A stretch of DNA of 64,000 bases from Caulobacteraceae bacterium (GCA_947475875.1 CANJME010000005.1:1-64000), one strand, 5' to 3'; counted from the first letter of the stretch, positions 17,408-32,749 are shown. Numbers and translations: made by a program. The notes: generated from the letters alone by a model not told the origin.

Positions 17408-17501
17408 ACGTCCCTTTTCGGGCGCAGTCGGGCTATACTGTGGCGTCCAAAATAAAGAATGAGGCAAGGCCATCGGACCTTTGCCCTTCAGGAGGCAGGC
17501 T

Positions 17502-19520
17502 ATGACGGTTTCACGCAAGGCGTTGGGATTATGGTCGGCCGGGGCCGTGCTCGCCCTCGTGGCCGGCAGCGCCGGTATGAGCGCGCCGGGGCCGCAAAAG
17601 GTCGGCGACTTCCAGCTGCCGGATCAGAACTATATCGGCCGACACCTATACAAGATGGCCGACGCCAAGGCGGTGGTGCTGATCACCTATCAGGCGGGCG
17701 ATGCGGCGTTCCGGGCCGATGCGCCGGCCTACAAGGCCCTCAGGGACGCCTATGCGGCCAGGGGCGTTGAATTCCTGATCCTCGATCCGAAGCTGGGCGA
17801 GAGCCGCCAGACTGTGGCCGCCGACAAGGCCGCCTCGGACCTCGGCATGCCGATCCTGTTCGACTATGAGCAACTGACCGGCGAGGACCTGGATGTCTCA
17901 CGCGCCGCCGAGGTCATCGTCATCAATCCAAAGGACTGGACCATCGCCTTCCGGGGCCCGGTCAGCCACGCCTCGACACGCCGGGCCCTCGATTCCCTGG
18001 TGGACGGCAAATCCATCGCCCTGCCCGCCGTCGCCGCGCGCGGCGGCGCCATCGCCTTTCCGCTGAAGGCGGCCGTCTCCAAGACTGGCAACCTCTCATA
18101 TGCCAAGGATGTCGCGCCGATCATCCAGGCCAAGTGCGTCGCCTGCCACCAGCCGGGCGGTATCGGGCCCATGACGCTGACCAGCTACGAGCAGATCCGC
18201 GGTCACGGCCAGATGATCCGCGAGGTGCTGCGCAACCACCGCATGCCTCCCTTCCAGCCCGACCCGACCGTCGGTCACTGGGCGCCGGACGATGGCCTGT
18301 CGTCGGATCAGTTGAAGACCGTGGTTCACTGGATCGAGGCCGGCGCGCCGCGTGGAGCCGGGGACGATCCTCTGGCGAAGATCACCTTCCGGGCGCCGGA
18401 ATGGCCGATGGGCCAGCCGGACCTGATCCTGACCCTGCCGGAGGTGAAGGTGCCGGCCACCGGCGTCATGCCCTATCAAAACCAGGTGCTCGACACCCGC
18501 ATGACCGAGGGACGGTGGGAGCGGGCGACCGCGTTCAACTATGAGGATCGCCAGGCGCTGCACCACATCGTCACCGGCATCCGTGTACCTAGCGACAGCG
18601 GCCGGGGCGTAACCCTGGACGGCAATTCCGACTCACTGGGCGGTCAGGGACCGGGGCGGGTGATCAATCTGACGCCGCCGGAAATGGGTGTCTGGGTGCC
18701 GGCGGGCTCGCAGATCACATTCCAGAACCACTTCACGCCCTATGGCCGGGAAACCACCGAGAACATAAAGCTCGGCATCTATTTCTATCCCAAAGGCCAG
18801 GAGCCCAAGTACCCCCTGCGCACCTACGGTTTGCAGGACTACGGCATCTCGATCCCGGCCGGCGCCGAGTATCACCCTGAGACGTCCTATCTGGATGTGC
18901 CGAAAGACATGCTGCTCTACGGCCTGACGCCGCACGCCCACATGCGCGGCGGCTCGACCCAGGTGTCGATCAAGTTCCCCGACGGGCATGAGCAACTGAT
19001 CCTGGCTGTGCCGAAATACCAGTTCGACTGGCAGACGGAATACTATCTGAAAGAACCCATCCTGGCGCCGGCGGGCTCGAAAATCATCAACCGCTGGACC
19101 TATGACAACTCAACGCGGAACACCAACAACCCCGATCCGGCCAAGGTCGTCGCCTTCGGAGAACAGTCGTGGGAGGAGATGCTGAGTTTCTTCATCCACT
19201 ATCGCTGGGTGGGCGAGACGACAGCGGCGCCGCGCGAAGACTATGACCGCCTGCTGATGGCCGGCCAGACCATGGGGGTGCTGGACGACAACATGAACGG
19301 CAAGATCGAGGTTGCCGAGATGCGCGGCCGCAATGGGGTAACGCTGAAGAACAACCTCGCCAACTACGACCTTAACCGCGACAATGCCATCGACCTGGCC
19401 GAGCTCGCCAAGACCCCGTTCGGACGCGGCAACAACGGTGGCGCCACGCCCGGCGCCGGTGTTTCCGGCGGCGCGCGCCCTGTTGCGGCCACGACGCCGG
19501 CGAGGGCGGCCGCGAACTAA
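17502..19520 (+). CDS. RCM2: redoxin-like/cytochrome c/copper monooxygenase-like protein
   Basis: 672 residues from ATG 17502, with GGAGG six bases upstream. Same layout as RCM1: signal peptide (about 1-28), redoxin-like domain (about 32-180), haem site C212-x-x-C-H216 with RMPP following, PHM-type ligands H354-H355, H410, H478-x-H480 and M560, and EF-hands at 595-606 and 623-634. The position matching RCM1 C74 is D67 (QAGDAAF) and the GC pair is GG, so the redoxin domain cannot do thiol chemistry. EF-hand 1 has Asn for Asp at position 5 and EF-hand 2 has Asn for the central Gly, so calcium binding may be weaker than in RCM3. Its stop is three bases from the convergent carboxylesterase stop. 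Confidence 0.8.
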   Translation: MTVSRKALGLWSAGAVLALVAGSAGMSAPGPQKVGDFQLPDQNYIGRHLYKMADAKAVVLITYQAGDAAFRADAPAYKALRDAYAARGVEFLILDPKLGESRQTVAADKAASDLGMPILFDYEQLTGEDLDVSRAAEVIVINPKDWTIAFRGPVSHASTRRALDSLVDGKSIALPAVAARGGAIAFPLKAAVSKTGNLSYAKDVAPIIQAKCVACHQPGGIGPMTLTSYEQIRGHGQMIREVLRNHRMPPFQPDPTVGHWAPDDGLSSDQLKTVVHWIEAGAPRGAGDDPLAKITFRAPEWPMGQPDLILTLPEVKVPATGVMPYQNQVLDTRMTEGRWERATAFNYEDRQALHHIVTGIRVPSDSGRGVTLDGNSDSLGGQGPGRVINLTPPEMGVWVPAGSQITFQNHFTPYGRETTENIKLGIYFYPKGQEPKYPLRTYGLQDYGISIPAGAEYHPETSYLDVPKDMLLYGLTPHAHMRGGSTQVSIKFPDGHEQLILAVPKYQFDWQTEYYLKEPILAPAGSKIINRWTYDNSTRNTNNPDPAKVVAFGEQSWEEMLSFFIHYRWVGETTAAPREDYDRLLMAGQTMGVLDDNMNGKIEVAEMRGRNGVTLKNNLANYDLNRDNAIDLAELAKTPFGRGNNGGATPGAGVSGGARPVAATTPARAAAN

Positions 19521-21205: not shown

Positions 21206-21697
21206 CTAGCCTTTGGCCTTGGCCCCGGCAGCCGTCTGGCAAGCCGCCAGATTACTGGTTCCAGGCACGCCGACCAGAGGCGCGCCCTCAGGACGGTAGC
21301 CCAGATCGATGGTCTGGCCGTTGTCGAAGACAACATAACTCCCACCCGCCGTGCATCCGGCTTTCTTCGCGCGCTCACAAGGCTTGAGGCGGGATTCATA
21401 TCCACTGATGGTGACATGAGTTCCGGCCTTGAGGGCCTCGCGGCAAAGGCCCCGCCGGAGCATGGTGTTGGGCGTGCCGGTCAGCACCGTCCATACCCGC
21501 GCCGGGCCGTTGCGGTCGGTGGCGGTGACCTGGATCAGCACGTGCGGATTGATCCATTGCACCGAATTCACCCAACCGGTCAGGGTGACAGGCGCGGCCG
21601 CATCGAACTCGGCCTGAAATCCGTGGTGGGCCTGGGCCGGCGCGGCGATCAGGGCAAGAAGCGCCAAGGTGGCGATGCGGCGCAGGTTTGCTCTCAT
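21206..21697 (-). CDS. DUF6152-family secreted protein 1
   Basis: 163 residues. A clear signal peptide ends in AQA (residue 23) directly before His24-His25, so the mature protein should begin HHGFQAEFD. A conserved WINPH places another His at mature residue 29. Four cysteines near the C-terminal half could form disulfides. The family, DUF6152 by my recollection, has no known function to me; GTPNTMLRRGL is shared with the four other copies here. It sits between two exported esterase genes on the same strand. A copper-binding role is inferred from the N-terminal His pattern and context. Confidence 0.75.
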   Translation of the reverse strand: MRANLRRIATLALLALIAAPAQAHHGFQAEFDAAAPVTLTGWVNSVQWINPHVLIQVTATDRNGPARVWTVLTGTPNTMLRRGLCREALKAGTHVTISGYESRLKPCERAKKAGCTAGGSYVVFDNGQTIDLGYRPEGAPLVGVPGTSNLAACQTAAGAKAKG

Positions 21698-21734
21698 GGA
21701 GCGCAGGATAGCCCAGTTTCAGGCAATTGTTCGT

Positions 21735-22724
21735 CTACCTCGTATGAATTCGCCGCGGGTCAACGGGTACAACCGGCATGCCCGCGAGGCGCTTCAGCGC
21801 ATCGTTCTGCGCCCGGGCCGTCAGCACCTGCTCATTGATCCAGTCACGCGGCGGGTTGAGCTCGCGCTGCAGGAAGGCGAGCGCATCGCGGTTGCGGACC
21901 TGGATCGAGGGGCCGACGTGATCGGCCCCCTTCACCAACCGGTACTCATGGCTGATCCCAGCATCGAACAGGATGCGGTGCAGGAACTCGGTTCCATGGT
22001 TCAGGTAGAACATGTCCTGGTCGCCGACCTCGAGATAGATGCCGAGACCCAGCAGCCGGTCGGGGTTGGCCTTGGCGATATTGGCCGGGTTGTTGGCGGC
22101 CCAGTAGGCGCGGTCGACCGGCTTGCCGTATTTTTCTTCGAAGATCGGCTCGCCGCGCCAGAAGCGGTCGCGCACCTGAATGTCGTCATAGGATAGGGCC
22201 GGTTCGATGCCAGGCTCCTGGCTGGCCACCGCCTGGAAGAGCTCGGGGTGTTTGAAGGCGATGCGCAAGCTTCCCATGCCGCCCATGGAGATCCCGGTGA
22301 TCAGCGTGCCATCACGGCCCTGAACCACGTGATAGTGCGAGCGCATGTAGGGCATCAGGTCGGAGAGGATGAACGCCTCCCACTTCTGGGAGCCATCCTT
22401 GTAGTCCATGTAGAATGAACGCTCGGCCGAGGGCATGACCGAGACGACCGGTTCGATCGTCCCGCTTTTGATGGCGTCGTCGAGGATGTTGGCCATGCCG
22501 GTCATGTTGGCCGACGAGCCGTTTCCGCCATGCAGCTGGATAAGCAGCGGATAGGGTTTGGTGCGCGCCGGATCATAATTCGGCGGCAGATAGACGGCGA
22601 TATCGACCGGGCCCGGTACATTGCGGCTGACCAGCGGCACGTGGGTGAGCTTGCCGTCGATGGCGTGAGCCGTGGGCGCGATCAGCATGACGAGAAGGAA
22701 CAGCAGGGGCCGGACGAACTTCAT
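21735..22724 (-). CDS. Secreted alpha/beta hydrolase (esterase D/PF00756-like)
   Basis: 329 residues from ATG 22724, with GGAG seven bases upstream. Signal peptide to about residue 21 (APTAHA). The esterase fold shows in YLPPNYDP, the oxyanion region LIQLHGGNG, nucleophile S146 in GISMGGMGSLRIA and the catalytic His in KGADHVGPS. Relatives include S-formylglutathione hydrolases, feruloyl esterases and mycolyltransferases, so the exact substrate is open. It is the first gene of the unit with DUF6152-1 and the type-B carboxylesterase. Confidence 0.9.
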   Translation of the reverse strand: MKFVRPLLFLLVMLIAPTAHAIDGKLTHVPLVSRNVPGPVDIAVYLPPNYDPARTKPYPLLIQLHGGNGSSANMTGMANILDDAIKSGTIEPVVSVMPSAERSFYMDYKDGSQKWEAFILSDLMPYMRSHYHVVQGRDGTLITGISMGGMGSLRIAFKHPELFQAVASQEPGIEPALSYDDIQVRDRFWRGEPIFEEKYGKPVDRAYWAANNPANIAKANPDRLLGLGIYLEVGDQDMFYLNHGTEFLHRILFDAGISHEYRLVKGADHVGPSIQVRNRDALAFLQRELNPPRDWINEQVLTARAQNDALKRLAGMPVVPVDPRRIHTR

Positions 22725-22917
22725 GGCGCACTCCATCGGGCGGGGTGCGGCAAGGATGGATCAGGGAGGCAAGCGGGGCAATGGCGAAGGAGGATCTCGT
22801 GGGGGCCGCAAGCCTGCGTGACGGCCGACTAAACCGCTTGGCCGCGGCGCATCGTCTGCTCGAGTGAGACCACCGACAACGGAACGGTGAAATGGATGTC
22901 GATCAGCGCCGTGCGCT

Positions 22918-23448
22918 TTACCGTCGCTTGACCACGGGATCGGGCGCGCAGACATCGGTCATGGTGCCGAGCAGCTGTTCGGGCGTCGCGTTCCAGCGGT
23001 TGTAAAGGCTGTTGTTGAGTGGCCGCGAGCCTTCGTCGAGATTGGACAGCCTGCCGCCTTCGAGCGTGATGGCGCCGCCGATCGCCTGACAGGTGGCCAG
23101 ATGGGTTTCCGGGTTTTGGGGGCAACGGCGATCCTTGGCCTGGTGCGCCTTGACGCTGACGGTCAGCCCGACTGTCAGATCGCCCCGCTCAAGGCCCATG
23201 CGGTTGAGCGCCACCGGCGTGCCGCCCTCGATCCGCCAGTCTCTGTCCGCCTTGCCGGGCGCCGAGACCCGCACGTGCAGCCAGGTATGGGGGCTGACCC
23301 ATTCCATAGCTGTGATCTTGCCGGCAATCGTGACGGGGGTCGAGCAATCGTACTCGGCCTCAAACGAGTGGTGCGCGCCGGCGGGCGCGGCGGTGAGCGC
23401 AAGAACGAGGCAAGCGACAAGCGGGACGATTTTACCAGGGCGGATCAT
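22918..23448 (-). CDS. DUF6152-family secreted protein 2
   Basis: 176 residues from ATG 23448; an upstream ATG at 23487 would add 13 residues ahead of the signal peptide. The leader ends in AGA (residue 25), then His26-His27. WVSPHTWLHV gives His at mature residues 29 and 33. EGGTPVALNRMGL matches the shared core. It has one of the weaker core matches of the five. About 190 bases separate it from the esterase downstream on the same strand, and nothing is recognisable in that gap. It is divergent from the FkbM gene. Confidence 0.73.
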   Translation of the reverse strand: MIRPGKIVPLVACLVLALTAAPAGAHHSFEAEYDCSTPVTIAGKITAMEWVSPHTWLHVRVSAPGKADRDWRIEGGTPVALNRMGLERGDLTVGLTVSVKAHQAKDRRCPQNPETHLATCQAIGGAITLEGGRLSNLDEGSRPLNNSLYNRWNATPEQLLGTMTDVCAPDPVVKRR

Positions 23449-23586
23449 GCGGGCCGGAAGAAACCCGAAAGCCGATGGAAAGTCCAACCCTGACGCGCTG
23501 AAAGGTCAGAAACCAGCGCAGGACACCCGACCGATCGCTCGATATGGTGTCCAAACGCCTCGCCGATCCGCGGCCGGCGCGGCGGA

Positions 23587-24330
23587 ATGGACGGGCCTAT
23601 GGATCAGGACGAGTATTACCTGGGCCTGATCGAGACCCTGGCGGCGTACCGACACAACCTCGATAAATTCCAGCCTTGCGACGACTTCACCTTTGTCGAC
23701 TACGTCATGCGCAATTGGCACAATTCGCACGCCCAGGGCTTCCAGGACCTGTTCGTGGCGATCTGGCACCAGCACGCCCGGGGCAAGTTCTTTGTCGAGT
23801 TCGGGGCCACCGACGGCGTGGCGATCAACAACACATTTATGTTGGAGCGGAGCTTGGGTTGGAACGGCATCCTGGCCGAACCGGCGAAGTTTTGGCACGA
23901 GGCCTTGCGCAAGAACCGCCATTGCGTGGTCGACCAGCGCTGTGTCTGGACGACGACGGGCGAGACGCTGCTGTTCAACCAGACGCCCAATCCCGACCAC
24001 TCGACCATCAGCAGCTTTTCCGGCCACGACTATCTGGCCGCTGAGCGGGAGGGCGGCGAAGTCTATGAGGTCAAGACCGTCTCCCTGCTCGATCTTTTGA
24101 TCCAGCACGGCGCGCCCAAGGTCATCGACTACCTTTCGGTCGATACTGAGGGGTCGGAACTGGAAATCCTCGAGGCCTTTGACTTTCGGCGCTTCGATGT
24201 GCGGGTCATTACCGTAGAGCACAATGACACCCCCGACCGACAGGCGATCTTCGACCTGCTCAGCGCCGAAGGTTACACCCGCATCCTGCCGCTGTTCTCG
24301 CGGTGGGACGACTGGTACGTGAAGCAGTAA
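23587..24330 (+). CDS. FkbM-family methyltransferase
   Basis: 247 residues. The SAM-binding motif FFVEFGATDGVAINNT, the partner strand NGILAEPAKFW, and DYLSVDTEGSELEILEAFDF are characteristic of FkbM-type O-methyltransferases, which methylate sugars or natural-product hydroxyls. No signal peptide, so cytoplasmic. It is the only plus-strand gene among seven minus-strand ones here and looks unrelated to the copper/redox theme. The start may instead be the ATG at 23599. Confidence 0.9.
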   Translation: MDGPMDQDEYYLGLIETLAAYRHNLDKFQPCDDFTFVDYVMRNWHNSHAQGFQDLFVAIWHQHARGKFFVEFGATDGVAINNTFMLERSLGWNGILAEPAKFWHEALRKNRHCVVDQRCVWTTTGETLLFNQTPNPDHSTISSFSGHDYLAAEREGGEVYEVKTVSLLDLLIQHGAPKVIDYLSVDTEGSELEILEAFDFRRFDVRVITVEHNDTPDRQAIFDLLSAEGYTRILPLFSRWDDWYVKQ

Positions 24331-24349
24331 GACGTGCGCCTAGAGCCAA

Positions 24350-24850
24350 TCAGCCTGCCGCCCCGCCGTCGCAGATATTGGGGTCAACTGGAACCGAGCC
24401 TCCCGGAACCTGTCCGTAACCAATCCTGGCCGTCTTGCCGTCCGCGAAGGTGATCGAATTCGCCCCGGCCTTGCAGGTCCCGGCCGGCACCGACCAGACC
24501 GTGCCGTTCGGACTGCTCCTGGCGCTCTCGCAGTCGTGATTTCGTGTGCGCCACGCCCGCACAGTGACCTCGGCTCCCACCGGGAGGTTCGCGCGGCAGA
24601 CGCCCAGCCGGAGCATTGAGTTGGGCGTGCCGGCCATGACGGCCCAGTTGGCCGGCGCCCTGCCGGGTTCCTCGACGGTCATAAGGATCAGGGTGTGGGG
24701 GTTTGCCCACTGAACCGAATTGATCTTGCCCTTCAGCACGACCGGCGCCTCGCCGTCGAACTCGGCCTGGAAGGCATGATGAGCGAGCGCCGGCGGCGCG
24801 ATGAGCGCCACCGTCAAAAGAATGGCTGGGAGTCTGAAACCTGATTTCAT
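24350..24850 (-). CDS. DUF6152-family secreted protein 3
   Basis: 166 residues from ATG 24850 (an ATG four codons upstream is also possible). Leader ends in ALA (residue 23), then His24-His25 (HHAFQAEFD). WANPHTL gives His at mature residue 29. Closest to copy 1 in the shared pieces FQAEFD, NSVQW and AGTPNSMLRLG. Cysteines are spread through the C-terminal half (GVCRAN, HDCES, GTCKAG, NICDG). Third gene of a three-copy array (copies 5, 4, 3), 92 bases after copy 4. Confidence 0.75.
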   Translation of the reverse strand: MKSGFRLPAILLTVALIAPPALAHHAFQAEFDGEAPVVLKGKINSVQWANPHTLILMTVEEPGRAPANWAVMAGTPNSMLRLGVCRANLPVGAEVTVRAWRTRNHDCESARSSPNGTVWSVPAGTCKAGANSITFADGKTARIGYGQVPGGSVPVDPNICDGGAAG

Positions 24851-24942
24851 GATGCGCCCCATCTGAAAATCGGGGCTGAAGTGTTACACCCCTAATCATT
24901 GGTACGCGCAGGAACGGCCCTTCCCTCAAGTCGAGGATAAAT

Positions 24943-25530
24943 TCAGCCGGAGGCGCGTGGACACGCGCTGGCGGGCACCTCGCCACTCGCAGGAGCAACA
25001 CCGCTCTTCAGGTAAGTTCCCCCCACCACCAACGGACGCCCGTTGGCGTCCAGCCGTTGCGGCGTCGGCGCCGGGACCGGCCAGTCGGCGTAGGGCGGTG
25101 GGGCGCCCGTCCCGCTGGCGCCAAAAATGATCGGCGGCGCGCCATCCAACGACAGCATGTGACCTTCGCCCTTACAGGTCGGCTTGCCCGTCGCGGCCGC
25201 CTCCTTGCAGCTCTGGTCCTTGGCCTTCCAGCCATAGACAGTGACGGCTTCTCCCGGTTTGAGCATGGCTTGCGTCAACCCCATGCGCACCAGGGTGTTG
25301 GGTGTGCCACCGCCGAACATCCAGTCCTGCGAACCTTTGCCGGGCTCGGCCACGGTGAGGTGCACCCAGACGTGCGGATTGGTCCATTCGACCGCCGTGA
25401 CGTGGCCGGAAATCTTGATGGGCGCGTTGCAGTCGGCGTTCGAGTCGAAGGCGTGGTGGGCGAGCGCCTGTTGCGCCACAGCGGCCAGCAGCGTGGCGGA
25501 AAGGGTCGCGATAATCGGTCCTGCCCTCAT
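24943..25530 (-). CDS. DUF6152-family secreted protein 4
   Basis: 195 residues. The ATG at 25530 is preferred because it overlaps the stop of copy 5 in an ATGA arrangement, which implies translational coupling. Leader ends in ALA (residue 24), then His25-His26. WTNPHVWVHL gives His at mature residues 29 and 33. After the shared core (GGTPNTLVRMGL) comes a longer Pro/Gly-rich tail with PPPYADWPVP. Role unknown, as for the other copies. Confidence 0.75.
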   Translation of the reverse strand: MRAGPIIATLSATLLAAVAQQALAHHAFDSNADCNAPIKISGHVTAVEWTNPHVWVHLTVAEPGKGSQDWMFGGGTPNTLVRMGLTQAMLKPGEAVTVYGWKAKDQSCKEAAATGKPTCKGEGHMLSLDGAPPIIFGASGTGAPPPYADWPVPAPTPQRLDANGRPLVVGGTYLKSGVAPASGEVPASACPRASG

Positions 25531-26153
25531 TTGGCGAACCTGGGCTGAGGGAAATCCACGCGGCAACCGCGAAAGTCGGATGGGGGGCCCGCGACCGGCG
25601 TCCCGTTCTGCGTCACGCCGTTCCGCACAGGTGGACTGCCCAGGCCGTCCGGCGGCGTAACGACGCGTTTGCCCCAGGTCACTTCCTCGCAGCAGCCCGG
25701 CGGCTCGACCGGATCATAAGGCGCGCCCTCGCCGGCTACACCCATATAGACCCACGCCGCCCCCTCGATGGATATCGCCTGACCGCTGGCCTTGCAGGTC
25801 ATCGTATGGGTCAGCGGGCTCTCAAGGCAGCGCTTGTCCCTGGCCTGGTAGCCGCGGATCACGACATCGGCGCCGACCTTGAGGGTCGAGCGGTCGAGGT
25901 TCTGGCGCAACATGCTGTTGGGCGTCGCGCCCTCGGCCATCCAGTCGACCGGGTCCTTGCCGGGTTCGGTGACCGTCAGATGAATCCAGGTGTGCGGGTT
26001 TTGCCATTCGACCGCGATGACCTTGCCATGCAGCAGAACCGGCGCATTGCAGTCGTGCTCTGCCTGAAAGGCGTGGTGCGCCAGCGCTCGCTCACAGGTC
26101 ACACTGGCGAACAGTGCGGCCACGGCGGCGGCAATTAACGGATGCGATCTCAC
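25527..26153 (-). CDS. DUF6152-family secreted protein 5
   Basis: 208 residues, longest of the five. Leader ends in ALA (residue 25), then His26-His27 (HHAFQAEHD, with an extra His at mature residue 8). WQNPHTWIHL gives His at mature residues 29 and 33. The core GATPNSMLRQNL is followed by a tail with a vicinal Cys-Cys (PPGCCEEV). It is the first gene of the copy 5-4-3 array and is divergent from RCM3, with 230 bases between them that probably hold both promoters. Confidence 0.75.
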   Translation of the reverse strand: MRSHPLIAAAVAALFASVTCERALAHHAFQAEHDCNAPVLLHGKVIAVEWQNPHTWIHLTVTEPGKDPVDWMAEGATPNSMLRQNLDRSTLKVGADVVIRGYQARDKRCLESPLTHTMTCKASGQAISIEGAAWVYMGVAGEGAPYDPVEPPGCCEEVTWGKRVVTPPDGLGSPPVRNGVTQNGTPVAGPPSDFRGCRVDFPQPRFAK

Positions 26154-26383
26154 AGGATCTGCCTTTCGCTGCCGGTCGCCTCGCTTACGCGTGAAAACCC
26201 GCCCTGCCTGCGTAAACCCGGCCCTCGCTCAGGGTCAAGCCGAACTCAGGTGGGAATGACCTAACACCGCTAGATTATTGGACAAAGCTCGCCTTGGCGT
26301 CGAAACGGGGTTACCCTCGGCTTATCGAGGAACACAAAGAGCGGCCTGCGTTCGTGAAAGGCCGCCAACCCGGAGACAAGCCC

Positions 26384-28429
26384 ATGTCCAACACCCGCAA
26401 ATTCGTGCGTTTCGCTTTCGCCGGCGCCACCATGGCGCTGCTGGCCGGATCGGCTGGCCTGTCGGCGACGACAACGCAGCGCGTGGATGATTTCCAGCTG
26501 GCCGACCAGAACTTCCTGGGTCGTCATCTCTATAAAATGAGTGACGCCAAGGCGATCGTGCTCATCAGCTATCAGGCGGGCGATGCGACCATCGCCAAGG
26601 ATGCCGCGTCTTATAAAGCGCTGAAAGACGCTTATGCCTCCAGGGGCGTCGAATTCCTGATGGTCGATTCCAAAGCGGGTGAAACACGGGCGACCGTTGC
26701 GGCCGACACGGCTGTCTCTGGCCTCGGTATCCCGATCCTGTTCGACTACAATCAGATTGTCGGCGAGGGTCTCGACCTGACCCGCGCGGCCGAGGTCATC
26801 GTCGTCAATCCGAGGGACTGGACCGTGGCCTTCCGCGGCCCGGTGGGCAACGCCTCGACGAAGCGGGCGCTCGACAGCCTGGTGGCCGGTCAGGCCGTAA
26901 AGCTGCCGGCCGCGGCGCCCAAGGGCGGCCTGATCGCCCTGCCTCTCAAGGCCGCGGTGACCAAGCGCACCGAGGTCACCTATGTGAAGGACATCGCCCC
27001 CATCGTGCAGGCCAAGTGCGTCGCCTGCCACCAGCCCGGCGGCATCGGGCCGATGACGCTGACCAACTACGACCAGATCCGCGGCCATGCCCCGATGATC
27101 CGCGAAGTCATCCGCACCCAGCGCATGCCGCCATACCTGGCTGACGCCACCGTGGGTCACTTCACCGACGACGACCGCCTCTCGGGCGATCAGATCAAGA
27201 CCCTGGTCCACTGGATCGAGGACGGCGCCAAGCGAGGGACCGGCGATGACCCGCTGGCCAGGATCACCTTCCAGGCGCCCGAGTGGCCTCTGGGCCGCAA
27301 GCCCGACATCATCGTGGACCTGCCGGAACAGAAGGTTCCGGCGACGGGCCGCTTGCCCTACACCACCCCGGTGGTGCCGGCGGTAATGACCGAGGGCCGC
27401 TGGATGCAGGCCACCGCCTTCCGCATCAGCGACCGCCAGGTCGTCCACCACATCCTGACCAGCATTGTCCCCGGTGCGCCTCAGCCCGGATCGGCCGCGC
27501 CGGGTAACGCCAACGCCGGGGTCTCCATCGGCGGCTACGGCCCCGGGCGCCTCGCCAACACCACGCCCAAAGACATGGGCGTGTGGATCCCGCCCTCGGG
27601 CGGCGTCTCGTTCCAGAACCACTACACGCCCTACGGCAAGGAAACGACGGAACGCACCCAGATGGGCATCTACTTCTATCCCAAGGGGCAGGAGCCGCTC
27701 TATCCGATGCGCACCTTCGGCATCTTCGATTTCGGCATCACCATCCCGGCCGGCGCCGAGTGGCACCCGGAAAGCGCCTATATCGATATTCCCAAGGACG
27801 CCTGGATCTACGGCATCACCCCGCACGCCCACCATCGCGGGTCTTCGGCCCAGGTCGCCATTCGCTATCCGGACGGCCATGAGGAAATGCTGCTCTCCCT
27901 GCCCCACTATGATTTCAATTGGCAGTACGAGTTCTATCTGGCCGAGCCTCTGAAAGCCCCTGCGGGCTCGAAGATCATCACCCGCTGGACCTACGACAAC
28001 TCGAGCCGCAACAAGGACAATCCCGATCCGACCCGGGAAGTCGTCTGGGGCGAGCAGTCGGACGAGGAAATGTTGGCCATGTACCTGCACTATCGATGGG
28101 ACGGCGAGACGACCAAGTCGCTGCATGACGACTATGACCGGCTGCTGTCGGCCGGCCAGCTGATGGGCGTGCTGGACGACAATATCGACGGCAAGCTGCA
28201 GGTTTCAGAACTGCGGGGTCGAACGGCTGCGGCTCTGAAGACCAACTTCGCCATGCTCGACCGCAACGGCGACGGCTCTCTCGATCCGACCGAAATGGCC
28301 GCCACCGGTGGACGCGGCGGCGCCACGCCGGCGCGCGCAGCCTCGGCGGCTCCGGCCACCGGCGCGGCGGGTCGTGGAGCGGCTCCTTCCGGCGCCAATG
28401 CGAGCAGCGTGACGCCGCGAACTAACTAG
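26384..28429 (+). CDS. RCM3: redoxin-like/cytochrome c/copper monooxygenase-like protein
   Basis: 681 residues from ATG 26384, with GGAG eight bases upstream; the frame is open for another 30 codons but the signal peptide begins here. Haem site C212-x-x-C-H216; putative copper ligands H355-H356, H413, H481-x-H483 and M563. The redoxin cysteines are replaced as in RCM2 (D67 in QAGDATI; GG for GC). Both EF-hands are canonical (DDNIDGKLQVSE and DRNGDGSLDPTE), followed by an Ala/Gly tail. It is followed by the PQQ dehydrogenase and RCM4 in the same direction, spaced by 90 and about 130 bases. Confidence 0.8.
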   Translation: MSNTRKFVRFAFAGATMALLAGSAGLSATTTQRVDDFQLADQNFLGRHLYKMSDAKAIVLISYQAGDATIAKDAASYKALKDAYASRGVEFLMVDSKAGETRATVAADTAVSGLGIPILFDYNQIVGEGLDLTRAAEVIVVNPRDWTVAFRGPVGNASTKRALDSLVAGQAVKLPAAAPKGGLIALPLKAAVTKRTEVTYVKDIAPIVQAKCVACHQPGGIGPMTLTNYDQIRGHAPMIREVIRTQRMPPYLADATVGHFTDDDRLSGDQIKTLVHWIEDGAKRGTGDDPLARITFQAPEWPLGRKPDIIVDLPEQKVPATGRLPYTTPVVPAVMTEGRWMQATAFRISDRQVVHHILTSIVPGAPQPGSAAPGNANAGVSIGGYGPGRLANTTPKDMGVWIPPSGGVSFQNHYTPYGKETTERTQMGIYFYPKGQEPLYPMRTFGIFDFGITIPAGAEWHPESAYIDIPKDAWIYGITPHAHHRGSSAQVAIRYPDGHEEMLLSLPHYDFNWQYEFYLAEPLKAPAGSKIITRWTYDNSSRNKDNPDPTREVVWGEQSDEEMLAMYLHYRWDGETTKSLHDDYDRLLSAGQLMGVLDDNIDGKLQVSELRGRTAAALKTNFAMLDRNGDGSLDPTEMAATGGRGGATPARAASAAPATGAAGRGAAPSGANASSVTPRTN

Positions 28430-28519: not shown

Positions 28520-30595
28520 ATGAAGTTTCGCACCGGAGCGATCGCGGGGCTCGCCGCCCTTGTCTTGGCCGCGAGCGCAGCTGGAATTTCCTGGTCCCAG
28601 CAAGGCGCGCCAGCCGTCCCCTCCGGCGCCGCGGTCTTCGACGCCCGCTGCAAGCGCTGTCACGAACCGGCGATCACCCGAGCGCCCAACCTCGAACAGC
28701 TGCGTGCGCGCACCAACCAGGACATCATTGATGCGCTGACGCGGGGGGTCATGCAGCCTCAGGCCGTCGGCATGACCCCGGCCGAGATGAGCGCTGTCGC
28801 CACGTTTCTGACCGGTCAGGCCGCTCCGACGCCCGGGCGCGGTGGCGCGGCGGCGGGCCGCGGACCGGCCGCCCCTCCGGCCCCACCTGTCACCTACGAT
28901 CCGGCGCCCGCTTCTGTGACGACCAGCCTGCTCGGTAGGCTGCGCTCGGTCTCGCGGGCGATGCTGCATCGGCCCGCACCCGGCGACTGGCTGCGTTGGG
29001 GACGAACCGATGACGGACAGGGCTTCAGCCCCCTCACCCAGATCAATCGCAGCAATGTCGCCAGTCTCCATCAGGCCTGGCGCACACCCCTGCAGCCCGG
29101 CCCCAGCATGCCGACCCCTATCGTCCACGACGGGGTGATGTTCCTGCAGACCAACCCGGACACCGTACTGGCGCTCGACGCCACGACAGGCAAGCTCCTG
29201 TGGCGCCAGACCTATGCGCCGGTCGGTCCTTCCAGCCAGAAGATGGGCATCGCGCTCGCGGGAGACCGGGTGTTCGTCCCGACCTCGGATATCCATGTGA
29301 TCGCGCTCGACGCCAAAACGGGTCAGAAGACCTGGGATCACACCATCGAGCTCAGCGCGCCGGCCACCGATCGCACCCAGTTCCAGCTGCGCAGCGCACC
29401 GATCGTCGTCGGCGACAAGGTCATTCAAGGCGTCACCGGCAGCGGCGCGCCGGGCGGCGGTTTCATCGTCGCGCTGGATATCAATACCGGCCGCGAAGTC
29501 TGGCGCTTCCACACTATTCCCCGCCCGGGTCAGCCGGGTGACAACAGCTGGAACGGGCTTTCCCTGGAAAAGCGCAGCGGCGCCTCGGTGTGGGACCAGG
29601 GCACTTACGATCCGGCGCTCAATCTGGTCTATTTCGGCGTCGGCCAGACCTACGACACCGCGCCCCTCAACCGACCCTCGGGCGCGGCGGGTACGAACCA
29701 GGACTCGCTCTACACCGACTCCACCCTGGCGCTGGATCCGGACACCGGCGAACTCAAGTGGCACTACCAGCATCTCAAGAACGATCAGTGGGACCTCGAC
29801 TGGGTGTTCGAACGCCAACTGGTGACCATGAAGGTCGCCGGCAAGACCCGCCGGGTCGTCACCACAATCGGCAAGATGGGCATTCTCGACGCCCTCGACG
29901 CCAAGACCGGCGAGTACCTGTTCTCGATCGATGCAGGCACGCAGAACGTCATCACCGGGATCGACCCAAAGACAGGGGCCAAGACGACCGATCCCCAGAA
30001 GTGGCCCGACCCGTCACGAACCTCCCTGATTTGTCCGGGCGTCTCGGGCGCCCGCGCCTGGCCGACCACCTCGTTCAGCCCGCAGACGGGCCTCGTCTAT
30101 GTGCCGATCACCGAATGGTGCTTGACCTTCAGCGCTCAGGGCTCGCGGCTGCTCTCGGCGCCCGGCGCACAGTTCGCCGCCGCCGACCACCCCGATGCGG
30201 CGAAAGACGGCATGATGGGCCGGGTTACGGCCATGGACCTCAGTGGACGCAAATTGGGCTGGAGCCACGACGTGCCGGCGCCGGTATCGACCTCGGTCAT
30301 GGCGACGGCCGGGGGCGTGGTCTTCGCCGGCGATCTCGATCCGGCGCTCAAGGCCTTCGACGACCGCGACGGCAAACTGCTGTGGACCGCCCAACTCGAT
30401 GCCTTCCCCAGCTGCAACCTGATTACCTACAGCGTCGGGAAGACCCAGTACGTGGCCGTGGTCATTGGCATGACCAACAATCAGATCGGCGATCTGTCGC
30501 GGCGCTATCAAGCCTTCCAGCGTGCGCGAACCGTGACGCCAACCAGACAGACCGGAGCGCCGGCCATCGTGGTGTTTGCTTTGTCAGGCCGTTAA
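28520..30595 (+). CDS. Secreted PQQ-type dehydrogenase with N-terminal cytochrome c domain
   Basis: 691 residues from ATG 28520 behind a strong GGGGAGGG site. Signal peptide (about 1-27), then a small cytochrome c domain (C44-x-x-C-H, motif CKRCH) and a Gly/Ala/Pro linker, then an eight-blade quinoprotein propeller (about 150-690). Blade repeats such as LALDATTGKLLW and IALDAKTGQKTW, plus SVWDQGTYDPALNLVYFG and KNDQWDLDW, support the family. Such enzymes oxidise alcohols in the periplasm and give electrons to cytochrome c. In known quinohaemoproteins the cytochrome is usually C-terminal, so this order is less usual. I do not see the vicinal Cys-Cys seen in many alcohol dehydrogenases. Between RCM3 and RCM4, likely one transcript. 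Confidence 0.85.
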   Translation: MKFRTGAIAGLAALVLAASAAGISWSQQGAPAVPSGAAVFDARCKRCHEPAITRAPNLEQLRARTNQDIIDALTRGVMQPQAVGMTPAEMSAVATFLTGQAAPTPGRGGAAAGRGPAAPPAPPVTYDPAPASVTTSLLGRLRSVSRAMLHRPAPGDWLRWGRTDDGQGFSPLTQINRSNVASLHQAWRTPLQPGPSMPTPIVHDGVMFLQTNPDTVLALDATTGKLLWRQTYAPVGPSSQKMGIALAGDRVFVPTSDIHVIALDAKTGQKTWDHTIELSAPATDRTQFQLRSAPIVVGDKVIQGVTGSGAPGGGFIVALDINTGREVWRFHTIPRPGQPGDNSWNGLSLEKRSGASVWDQGTYDPALNLVYFGVGQTYDTAPLNRPSGAAGTNQDSLYTDSTLALDPDTGELKWHYQHLKNDQWDLDWVFERQLVTMKVAGKTRRVVTTIGKMGILDALDAKTGEYLFSIDAGTQNVITGIDPKTGAKTTDPQKWPDPSRTSLICPGVSGARAWPTTSFSPQTGLVYVPITEWCLTFSAQGSRLLSAPGAQFAAADHPDAAKDGMMGRVTAMDLSGRKLGWSHDVPAPVSTSVMATAGGVVFAGDLDPALKAFDDRDGKLLWTAQLDAFPSCNLITYSVGKTQYVAVVIGMTNNQIGDLSRRYQAFQRARTVTPTRQTGAPAIVVFALSGR

Positions 30596-30724
30596 TTCCC
30601 TATCGGCGGTAGGTGCAAGCGTCTGCAAGTTCTCGCCTTTTCAGAGAATGTGAAGTAGCCTTTCAGCAACAGAAACGAGCGATCGTAGACTTAGGTAAGG
30701 CGATCGCCATGCGGGAGCGAAGTG

Positions 30725-32749
30725 ATGTCGGCATCCTCGAAGGTAGCGCGATTCATGGTTGCAGGAGCGGCCCTGGCACTTCTGGCCGGATCGGTCGGGC
30801 ACGGCGCGGCGACGCCGCAGCGGGTGGATGACTTCCAGCTGCCGGATCAGAATTACGTCGCCTATCGCCTGCACAAGAGCTTCGACGCCAAGGCCATCGT
30901 GCTGATGAGCTACCAGGCAGGCGATGCGACCTTCAAGGCCGATGCGCCGGCCTACAGGGCTCTCCGGGACGCCTACGCATCCAGAGGCGTCGAATTCAGG
31001 ATCATCGATTCCAAGCTGGGCGAAACCCGAGAGGCGGTCGCGGCCGACACCGTGGCTTCCAGCCTCGGCATGCCGATCCTGTTCGACTACGAACAGTTGG
31101 TCGGCGAGGGCCTGGACCTGACCCGCGCGGCCGAGGTCATTATCGTCAACCCCAAAGACTGGACCGTCGCCTTCCGAGGGCCCGTCGGCCACGCCTCGAC
31201 GAAGCGGGCGCTCGACGCCCTGGTGGACGGCAAGTCCATCGCCCTGCCCGCCCAGGCGCCCAGGGGCGGCGCGATTGTCTTCCCGATGAGGGCAATGGCG
31301 ACGACAAAGGCGACCGAGATTTCCTACGCCCGGGACATCGCGCCGATCGTTCAGGAAAAGTGCGTCACCTGCCACCAGTCCGGCGGCCTGGGTCCAATGG
31401 CCCTGACCAGCTATGAAAAGATCAAGGGCACAGCGCCGATGATCCGCGAGGTACTGCGCACCCACCGCATGCCGCCGTTCCAGCCCGATCCCACGGTCGG
31501 TCACTGGGCGCCGAACGAGGGCCTGTCCTCCGAACAGCTCAAGACTATGGTTCACTGGATCGAAGCGGGCGCCCCGCGCGGGACTGGCGATGATCCGCTC
31601 GCCAAGGTGACCTTCACGGTTCCGGCCTGGCCGGTGGCAGGCACGCCCGATGTGGTGCTGTCGATTCCCGAGGTGAAGGTCCCCGCCACCGGCGTCATGG
31701 CCTATCAGAACCCCGTGGTCGCCACGAATCTGACCGAAGGCCGCTGGATGCGCGCCTCGGCCTTCCAAGTCAGCGACCGGGCCGCTCTGCACCACGTCAC
31801 CACCGTGGTCCGCGCGCCCAATGACTCAGGCGCGATGATGTCGCTGGAATCGGGCTCGTCCTCGATCGGCGGCCAGGGCCCTGGCCGGGTGATCAATCTG
31901 GTGCCCAAGGACATGGGCGTGTGGGTGCCGGCGGGGTCCGTCGTAGCCTTCTCGACGCACTATACGCCCTACGGCCGCGAGACGACCGAGAAGACCAATA
32001 TGGGTCTCTACTTCTATCCCAAGGGCGAGACGCCGAAGTATCCGATGCGCACCTACGGCATCTACGACATGGGCATCTCGATCCCGGCCGGCGTCGAATA
32101 CCACCCGGAAGTCGCCTATACCGACATCCCCAAGGACATGCTGCTCTACGGAATCACGCCCCACGCCCACATGCGCGGCGGCTCGACCCAGGTGTCGATC
32201 AAATACCCCGACGGCCACGAGCAGATGATCCTGGCCGTGCCGCACTACAATTTCGAATGGCAGTGCGAGTTCTATCTCGAACAGCCGATCATGGTGCCGG
32301 CCGGCTCGCGCATCATCAACCGCTGGACCTATGACAACACCGTCCGCAACACCGGCAATCCGGCGCCGGACAAGACCATCACCTTCGGCGAACAGTCCTG
32401 GGAAGAGATGCTGGTCTTCTTCCTGCACTATCGCTGGGTCGGCGAGACGACGGTCGCCCTGCGTGACGACTATGATCGCCTGATGTCGGCCGGCCAGACC
32501 ATGGGCGCACTGGACGACAACCAGGACGGCAAGCTGCAGGTGGCAGAGCTGCGCGGCACGCAAGCTGCCCGCTACCGCACCAATGTCGCCACGCTCGACC
32601 TGAACAAGGACGGCGCGCTCGACATGGCGGAACTGGCCGCGGCCGGAAGCGGCCGGGCGCCCGCCGCCGGACGGGGTCAAGCCTCCACAGGCGCCGCTCC
32701 CGCGCCGGCGGCGATTGCTACGCCAAGGCCTGTCGCCGCGCGCCAATAG
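30725..32749 (+). CDS. RCM4: redoxin-like/cytochrome c/copper monooxygenase-like protein
   Basis: 674 residues from ATG 30725; GGGAG lies seven bases upstream, and a GTG one codon earlier is possible. Haem site C213-x-x-C-H217; putative copper ligands H356-H357, H412, H480-x-H482 and M562. Redoxin cysteines replaced (D67; GG). EF-hands DDNQDGKLQVAE and DLNKDGALDMAE are complete. Sequence is nearest RCM2 in the cytochrome (VGHWAP) and copper (LLYGITPHAHMRGGSTQ) regions and nearest RCM3 in the redoxin region. The next 265 bases to the tRNA show no gene. Confidence 0.8.
   Translation: MSASSKVARFMVAGAALALLAGSVGHGAATPQRVDDFQLPDQNYVAYRLHKSFDAKAIVLMSYQAGDATFKADAPAYRALRDAYASRGVEFRIIDSKLGETREAVAADTVASSLGMPILFDYEQLVGEGLDLTRAAEVIIVNPKDWTVAFRGPVGHASTKRALDALVDGKSIALPAQAPRGGAIVFPMRAMATTKATEISYARDIAPIVQEKCVTCHQSGGLGPMALTSYEKIKGTAPMIREVLRTHRMPPFQPDPTVGHWAPNEGLSSEQLKTMVHWIEAGAPRGTGDDPLAKVTFTVPAWPVAGTPDVVLSIPEVKVPATGVMAYQNPVVATNLTEGRWMRASAFQVSDRAALHHVTTVVRAPNDSGAMMSLESGSSSIGGQGPGRVINLVPKDMGVWVPAGSVVAFSTHYTPYGRETTEKTNMGLYFYPKGETPKYPMRTYGIYDMGISIPAGVEYHPEVAYTDIPKDMLLYGITPHAHMRGGSTQVSIKYPDGHEQMILAVPHYNFEWQCEFYLEQPIMVPAGSRIINRWTYDNTVRNTGNPAPDKTITFGEQSWEEMLVFFLHYRWVGETTVALRDDYDRLMSAGQTMGALDDNQDGKLQVAELRGTQAARYRTNVATLDLNKDGALDMAELAAAGSGRAPAAGRGQASTGAAPAPAAIATPRPVAARQ

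Follow-up and report, generated by a model that had tools for sequence, protein, structure and literature searches.

Five DUF6152 genes at one locus

The stretch of DNA analyzed here comprises 64,000 nucleotides from a Caulobacteraceae bacterium (GCA_947475875.1 CANJME010000005.1:1-64000; hereafter the window), of which positions 21,206 to 26,153 encode five members of the DUF6152 family (PF19649). This family seems to be without prior study; the literature that we searched contains no paper mentioning either DUF6152 or DUF6644, a membrane protein family that accompanies it. The predicted mature DUF6152 proteins begin with two consecutive histidines and carry a third some 28 residues later, a pattern that characterizes the whole family and that we tentatively read as a metal site, most likely for copper, in a periplasmic system shared with two other uncharacterized families. 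An initial annotation of this DNA had described five open reading frames (ORFs) on the minus strand, and all five are present, each lying far above the curated Pfam cut-off (81–89 bits vs. 27). Their mature starts and histidine positions, as computed from the sequence, are as follows.

DUF6152 copy 1: 21206..21697, minus strand; mature part 21209-21628; His1-His2 codons 21623-21628; His29 codon 21542-21544; Pfam 83 bits
DUF6152 copy 2: 22918..23487, minus strand; mature part 22921-23373; His1-His2 codons 23368-23373; His29 codon 23287-23289; Pfam 87 bits
DUF6152 copy 3: 24350..24862, minus strand; mature part 24353-24781; His1-His2 codons 24776-24781; His29 codon 24695-24697; Pfam 81 bits
DUF6152 copy 4: 24943..25566, minus strand; mature part 24946-25458; His1-His2 codons 25453-25458; His29 codon 25372-25374; Pfam 89 bits
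DUF6152 copy 5: 25527..26153, minus strand; mature part 25530-26078; His1-His2 codons 26073-26078; His29 codon 25992-25994; Pfam 83 bits; query of the AlphaFold2 model

For copies 2 and 4, an internal ATG is the probable start codon, that of copy 4 lying at 25530-25528 (protein MRAGPII). Judging from the ORF coordinates, this ATG overlaps the stop codon of copy 5 as ATGA; considering this overlap and their consecutive arrangement, copies 5, 4, and 3 probably constitute one operon. Promoter and terminator scans of the DUF6152 array returned nothing exceeding chance.

A mature His-His start and a third histidine across the family

In all five copies AxA directly precedes the histidine pair, just as the initial annotation had proposed. 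We placed the cleavage site using the −3/−1 rule together with conservation, and the wider family fits this placement well: in the 187 homologues with a His-His start, position −1 is occupied by A (176), G (7) or S (4), matching the preference of signal peptidase I, position −3 by A, V, S, L, T or I, and the −3/−1 rule is satisfied in 187/187. A side observation concerns the export route, as part of the divergent clade (L140 and L142) carries Tat-like signal peptides with twin arginines, which suggests export by the twin-arginine translocation (Tat) pathway.

Across 188 distinct DUF6152 homologues, the first histidine is found in 188, the second in 187, and the later histidine (His28/29), a candidate third ligand, again in all 188. 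The sole departure at the second position (L215, with DUF6152 on the minus strand) starts with His-Cys, providing a natural variant of the putative second ligand, and one of the 188 members reads NH where the others read PH. Only three alignment columns reach a weighted frequency of 1.0, all three being these histidines, as compared to 0.39 for the median column. An initial alignment of 36 members had likewise left only H1, H2, P28, H29, and G69 invariant. The three histidines persist in relatives at ~22% identity and in divergent members scoring merely 28–50 bits, including a divergent HHGW clade that retains both the His-His start and the PH motif. Among the 187 His-His-bearing sequences, 111 came from hidden Markov model (HMM) searches without any HH requirement and 76 from patterns containing HH or NPH. 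Because such patterns favor the very residues in question, the 80 distant loci, collected by a broad scan with patterns of the window's subfamily, are biased for histidine counts and were counted apart from the HMM-derived members. At the level of sequence, the His-His start and third histidine are thus confirmed as a property of the whole DUF6152 family, not of the window alone.

Two finer claims of the initial annotation fare differently at the scale of the family. A histidine exactly at mature residue 29 is indeed present in all five copies of the window, but this spacing is specific to the AEFD-type subfamily: family-wide the later histidine lies at mature position 25–29, mostly 28 or 29, and AMFD-type and divergent members place it mostly at 28 or 27 through a one-residue indel. 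A further histidine at residue 33 occurs in three copies (2, 4, and 5), as claimed, but is conserved neither family-wide nor in copies 1 and 3, and we rejected it as a family ligand and regard it as incidental.

A metal site is the best explanation for an exported protein with three histidines that never vary, two of which occupy its free N-terminus. Histidine at a mature N-terminus is the classic, strong chelate for Cu(II), the preferred metal and the one favored by the Irving–Williams order (PMC10952591).

Distribution and constant partners

The genome containing the window harbors eight DUF6152 genes. In a search of 60 related genomes, DUF6152 was found in 16, with 1 to 42 copies each, and in a phylum-wide sample at least one gene was found in 31/299 genomes. 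Two other families are its constant associates, rather than the PHM-like RCM proteins encoded beside it in the window.

The first, which we call the PDLNGIW family after its consensus PDGKPDLNGIW, consists of secreted proteins or lipoproteins and carries no Pfam or NCBIfam name. Its gene is present in 74/80 distant loci, usually directly upstream of DUF6152 on the same strand, and it is the immediate neighbor of 29 of the 49 DUF6152 copies examined in four expanded genomes and a genus mate (G002). The invariant residues are Cys98, Cys236, Tyr108, Arg133, Trp156, and Glu189, and its model shows a borderline resemblance to fatty-acid-binding (calycin) barrels (Z 8.1), from which a calycin-like beta-barrel is predicted, likewise at the borderline.

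The second, DUF6644 (PF20349), is a multi-spanning membrane protein whose invariant residues, in the alignment of the divergent clade, are His36, Arg53, Lys105, Trp149, and Arg157. Its gene lies directly downstream of DUF6152 in 11/11 divergent-clade loci and also near canonical DUF6152 copies at L180 and L205, the latter featuring a PDLNGIW-like gene, DUF6152, and two DUF6644 genes in succession. In a search for copper genes among the neighbors of divergent-clade members, no family other than DUF6644 appeared in more than 2 of the 65 neighboring ORFs covered.

All three families are present in exactly the same 16/60 genomes, and in two genera that are mixed for presence and absence they change together; assuming independent genomes, the nominal probability of this co-occurrence is 7e-15. 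Copy numbers track that of DUF6152 closely, with Spearman coefficients of 0.87 for the PDLNGIW family, for which the largest genomes give minimum counts only, and 0.97 for DUF6644. Nine genomes of the phylum sample contain the PDLNGIW family, and all nine carry DUF6152; genomes of the divergent HHGW clade are devoid of it. The three families are linked in Proteobacteria and found also in Acidobacteriota and Myxococcota. The window's genome itself has 3 DUF6644 matches and 28 PDLNGIW matches, 8 of the latter in one head-to-tail row (L178, G000 contig C34, 2939-13496) with no DUF6152 among them.

Two neighborhoods deserve mention in their own right. At L185 (6495-10944), genes for a TonB-dependent receptor and a PepSY_TM membrane protein adjoin a DUF6152–DUF6644 pair, a hint of a role in the uptake or reduction of metal. 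At L063, L064, and ~23 other marine gammaproteobacterial loci, genes for a HupE/UreJ_2 membrane protein and a second, unnamed protein lie on the opposite strand just past DUF6152.

DUF6644 also bears on the identity of the metal. It is conceivable that the three histidines bind zinc, nickel, or haem, with DUF6152 passing haem to or from DUF6644, for example. Metals are indistinguishable from sequence, the invariant His and Lys of DUF6644 fall in predicted membrane segments where they could bind haem, and one DUF6644 member weakly matches UPF0093. However, that match is confined to 1 of 12 DUF6644 members (E 0.018), and the chemistry of a mature N-terminal histidine speaks for copper, leaving this alternative unlikely while still one to be reckoned with.

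Predicted fold

An AlphaFold2 model, built with copy 5 as the query and 36 sequences in the alignment, has a confident core, with block-mean predicted local distance difference test (pLDDT) values above 90 over residues 11–110. Strands at 8–25, 30–36, and 44–49 are followed by a helix at 53–58 and strands at 71–79, 84–86, and 93–104, and by this order of elements the modeled protein is an oligonucleotide/oligosaccharide-binding fold (OB-fold). The matches listed by structural comparison are OB-folds as well, namely PriB, many SSBs, and OB domains of tRNA synthetases, the top one among them being PriB (VIA Z 9.1, root-mean-square deviation 2.5 over 82 residues). PriB and SSB OB-folds are the best structural matches (Z 8–9 over ~80 residues), but identity to them is only 7–20%, and DUF6152 is exported, not cytoplasmic, and bears invariant histidines; the fold alone is shared. 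CusF, CopC, and LPMO chains are absent among the matches listed, an absence that carries no evidential weight. A search of PDB sequences with the family profile yielded nothing below E 0.07, hence no clear sequence relative.

Comparison with known copper proteins

How does DUF6152 relate to proteins already known to use their own N-terminus in a metal site? Like the histidine-brace proteins (the LPMO families, CopC, PmoF1, and pMMO, and the mono-histidine YcnI/DUF1775), it appears from its sequence to be exported, to start with histidine once matured, and to hold a further invariant histidine. LPMO and CopC adopt immunoglobulin (Ig)-like or beta-sandwich folds, whereas DUF6152 is predicted to be an OB-fold. 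The second histidine of DUF6152 immediately follows the first, unlike in histidine-brace proteins, and both copper and a T-shaped geometry are only putative for DUF6152. Scanned against all of Pfam at E 0.001, the copies in the window matched DUF6152 only and none of the CopC, LPMO, YcnI, or CusF models; the literature searched holds no paper that pairs "histidine brace" with "OB-fold". Several of the bacterial histidine-brace proteins function in copper transport (PMC10952591).

The periplasmic copper chaperone CusF (PF11604) is, like DUF6152, a small exported OB-fold protein, and both contain a short LKxGDxV stretch. The AMTM stretch of CusF with its methionine ligands is, however, missing from DUF6152, and CusF is not known to rely on a histidine at its mature N-terminus. 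Kinship between the two was considered and dropped, as hhalign gave probabilities of 18.6% and 16.0% over 18–19 columns and Pfam gave no match.

The layout of DUF6152 and DUF6644, with an exported N-terminal-histidine protein beside a multi-spanning membrane protein, is shared with the CopC–CopD pair, but neither sequence nor predicted fold relates DUF6152 to CopC. DUF6644 may or may not be a relative of CopD (PF05425): one DUF6644 member scores 26.3 bits, below the cut-off of 32.1, hhalign returns 0.5% from a thin alignment, and CopD is absent among the DUF6644 matches that include UPF0093.

A candidate copper site in a proposed periplasmic system

From the genes and their export signals, the invariant histidines, the OB-fold prediction, and three families that co-occur and adjoin one another, we infer metal binding, copper as the metal, a brace-like geometry, a carrier or redox role, and a transfer whose direction could be either way. 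In this proposal, to which we assign a probability of roughly 0.45, DUF6152 would be a copper-binding redox or cofactor protein of a periplasmic system that also comprises the PDLNGIW protein and DUF6644. The small, secreted OB-fold protein would bind one metal ion, most likely copper, through the N-terminal amine freed by cleavage together with the His1, His2, and His28/29 side chains, forming a brace-like site on a fold that known brace proteins do not use. Its partners in the system would be DUF6644, which is integral to the membrane, and the secreted beta-barrel PDLNGIW protein, and it may carry copper, or electrons via copper, between the two; the invariant His and Lys of DUF6644, together with a secreted barrel partner, suggest such transfer between membrane and periplasm. 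As DUF6152 and barrel paralogues multiply together to dozens of copies, they probably represent many substrate-specific versions rather than a housekeeping copper chaperone. A plain chaperone, one of the roles that the initial annotation had envisioned, fits poorly with up to 42 paralogues per genome.

A more elaborate version of the proposal, which we consider improbable, is that the three families constitute undescribed, substrate-specialized periplasmic copper oxidoreductases, in which a mononuclear copper would sit at His-His plus His28/29, possibly across a dimer, DUF6644 would act as the electron source in the membrane, and a small hydrophobic substrate would be bound by the calycin-like barrel.

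Several observations weigh against the copper proposal. Neither a PDLNGIW nor a DUF6644 gene lies near the five copies within the window. No recurrent known copper gene was found beside DUF6152, and its strongest recurrent neighbors are themselves uncharacterized. The co-occurrence probability is only nominal because related genomes are not independent. Zinc, nickel, and haem are alternatives to copper, if of lower likelihood. An intramolecular histidine brace is itself uncertain and perhaps impossible in one chain, since in the model the long first strand (18 residues) separates H1, just before it, from H29, just after it, and the first ten residues average a pLDDT of 75. Dimers of the SSB type can have their first strands side by side in antiparallel orientation. 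It is possible, albeit speculative, that DUF6152 pairs in the same manner, so that H1 from one subunit would approach H29 from its mate and create a metal site across the dimer.

The poorly ordered N-terminus of the model could also be taken to mean that no metal is involved at all, the His-His start and PH motif serving instead as a docking or catalytic surface for partners, or as a requirement for export. The tight linkage of the partner families to DUF6152 would accord with docking. However, the divergent clade that is devoid of the PDLNGIW partner still keeps all three histidines, the later histidine is ~28 residues into the mature protein and unneeded for export, and a contact surface is expected to be more variable than the fold core, whereas here the histidines are the most constant part. 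We therefore deem a metal-free role rather implausible.

If the copper proposal is true, another fold would be added to the few proteins whose metal site includes the chain's own N-terminus, and three uncharacterized families, with dozens of copies in some genomes, would gain a first functional handle.

RCM proteins and other neighbors in the window

The remaining features around the five copies are as follows.

RCM2: 26294..28429, plus strand; PHM-like multidomain protein, PF03712 at 28 bits (cut-off 23); divergent from copies 5-3
RCM paralogues, four in the window: 730-2889, 17481-19520, 26294-28429, and 30722-32749; redoxin-like, CxxCH, PHM-like, and EF-hand-like parts
Esterase: 21735-22736; unrelated gene interleaved among the DUF6152 copies
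FkbM methyltransferase: 23587-24330, transcribed opposite to the DUF6152 copies; unrelated interleaved gene
PQQ dehydrogenase with an N-terminal cytochrome c domain: 28520-30595, between two RCM genes

The RCM proteins score at or near the PF03712 cut-off and contain, in addition to a CxxCH motif, the invariant residues H361, H362, H417, H485, H487, and M567, which we take to correspond by motif to the six copper ligands of PHM. The earlier description of the DUF6152 genes as lying among putative copper-enzyme genes thus holds, insofar as these neighbors apparently keep the full ligand set.

It had further been suggested that DUF6152 serves the RCM enzymes specifically, as their copper chaperone or as an electron donor. 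Besides the retained ligands, the local arrangement is in favor: RCM2 is divergent from copies 5-3, a DUF6152 pair in a sister species (G001) stands head to head with an RCM gene in the same way, and the five copies of the window and the two of G001 form one clade (support 0.97). The window's genome has nine RCM matches, and all seven relatives with full RCM homologues (E <1e-100) also carry DUF6152. But these seven are among 16 DUF6152-bearing relatives, and the nine without include the genome with 42 copies; only 6/80 distant DUF6152 loci have an RCM homologue in the flanking DNA retrieved, which spanned up to 10 kb; and PF03712, found in 2/299 phylum genomes, overlaps with DUF6152 in the window's own genome only. 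A dedicated role is accordingly a doubtful explanation for the family, and the initial reading survives in its copper site, for which the three invariant histidines make copper a natural guess, and not in RCM as the general partner. Given the low co-occurrence elsewhere and the single clade of RCM-adjacent copies, the RCM–DUF6152 link is a trait of the window's lineage, in which a subfamily has expanded beside PHM-like genes and may serve their products locally. Relatives of the window's pyrroloquinoline quinone (PQQ) dehydrogenase occur in 19/80 distant DUF6152 loci.

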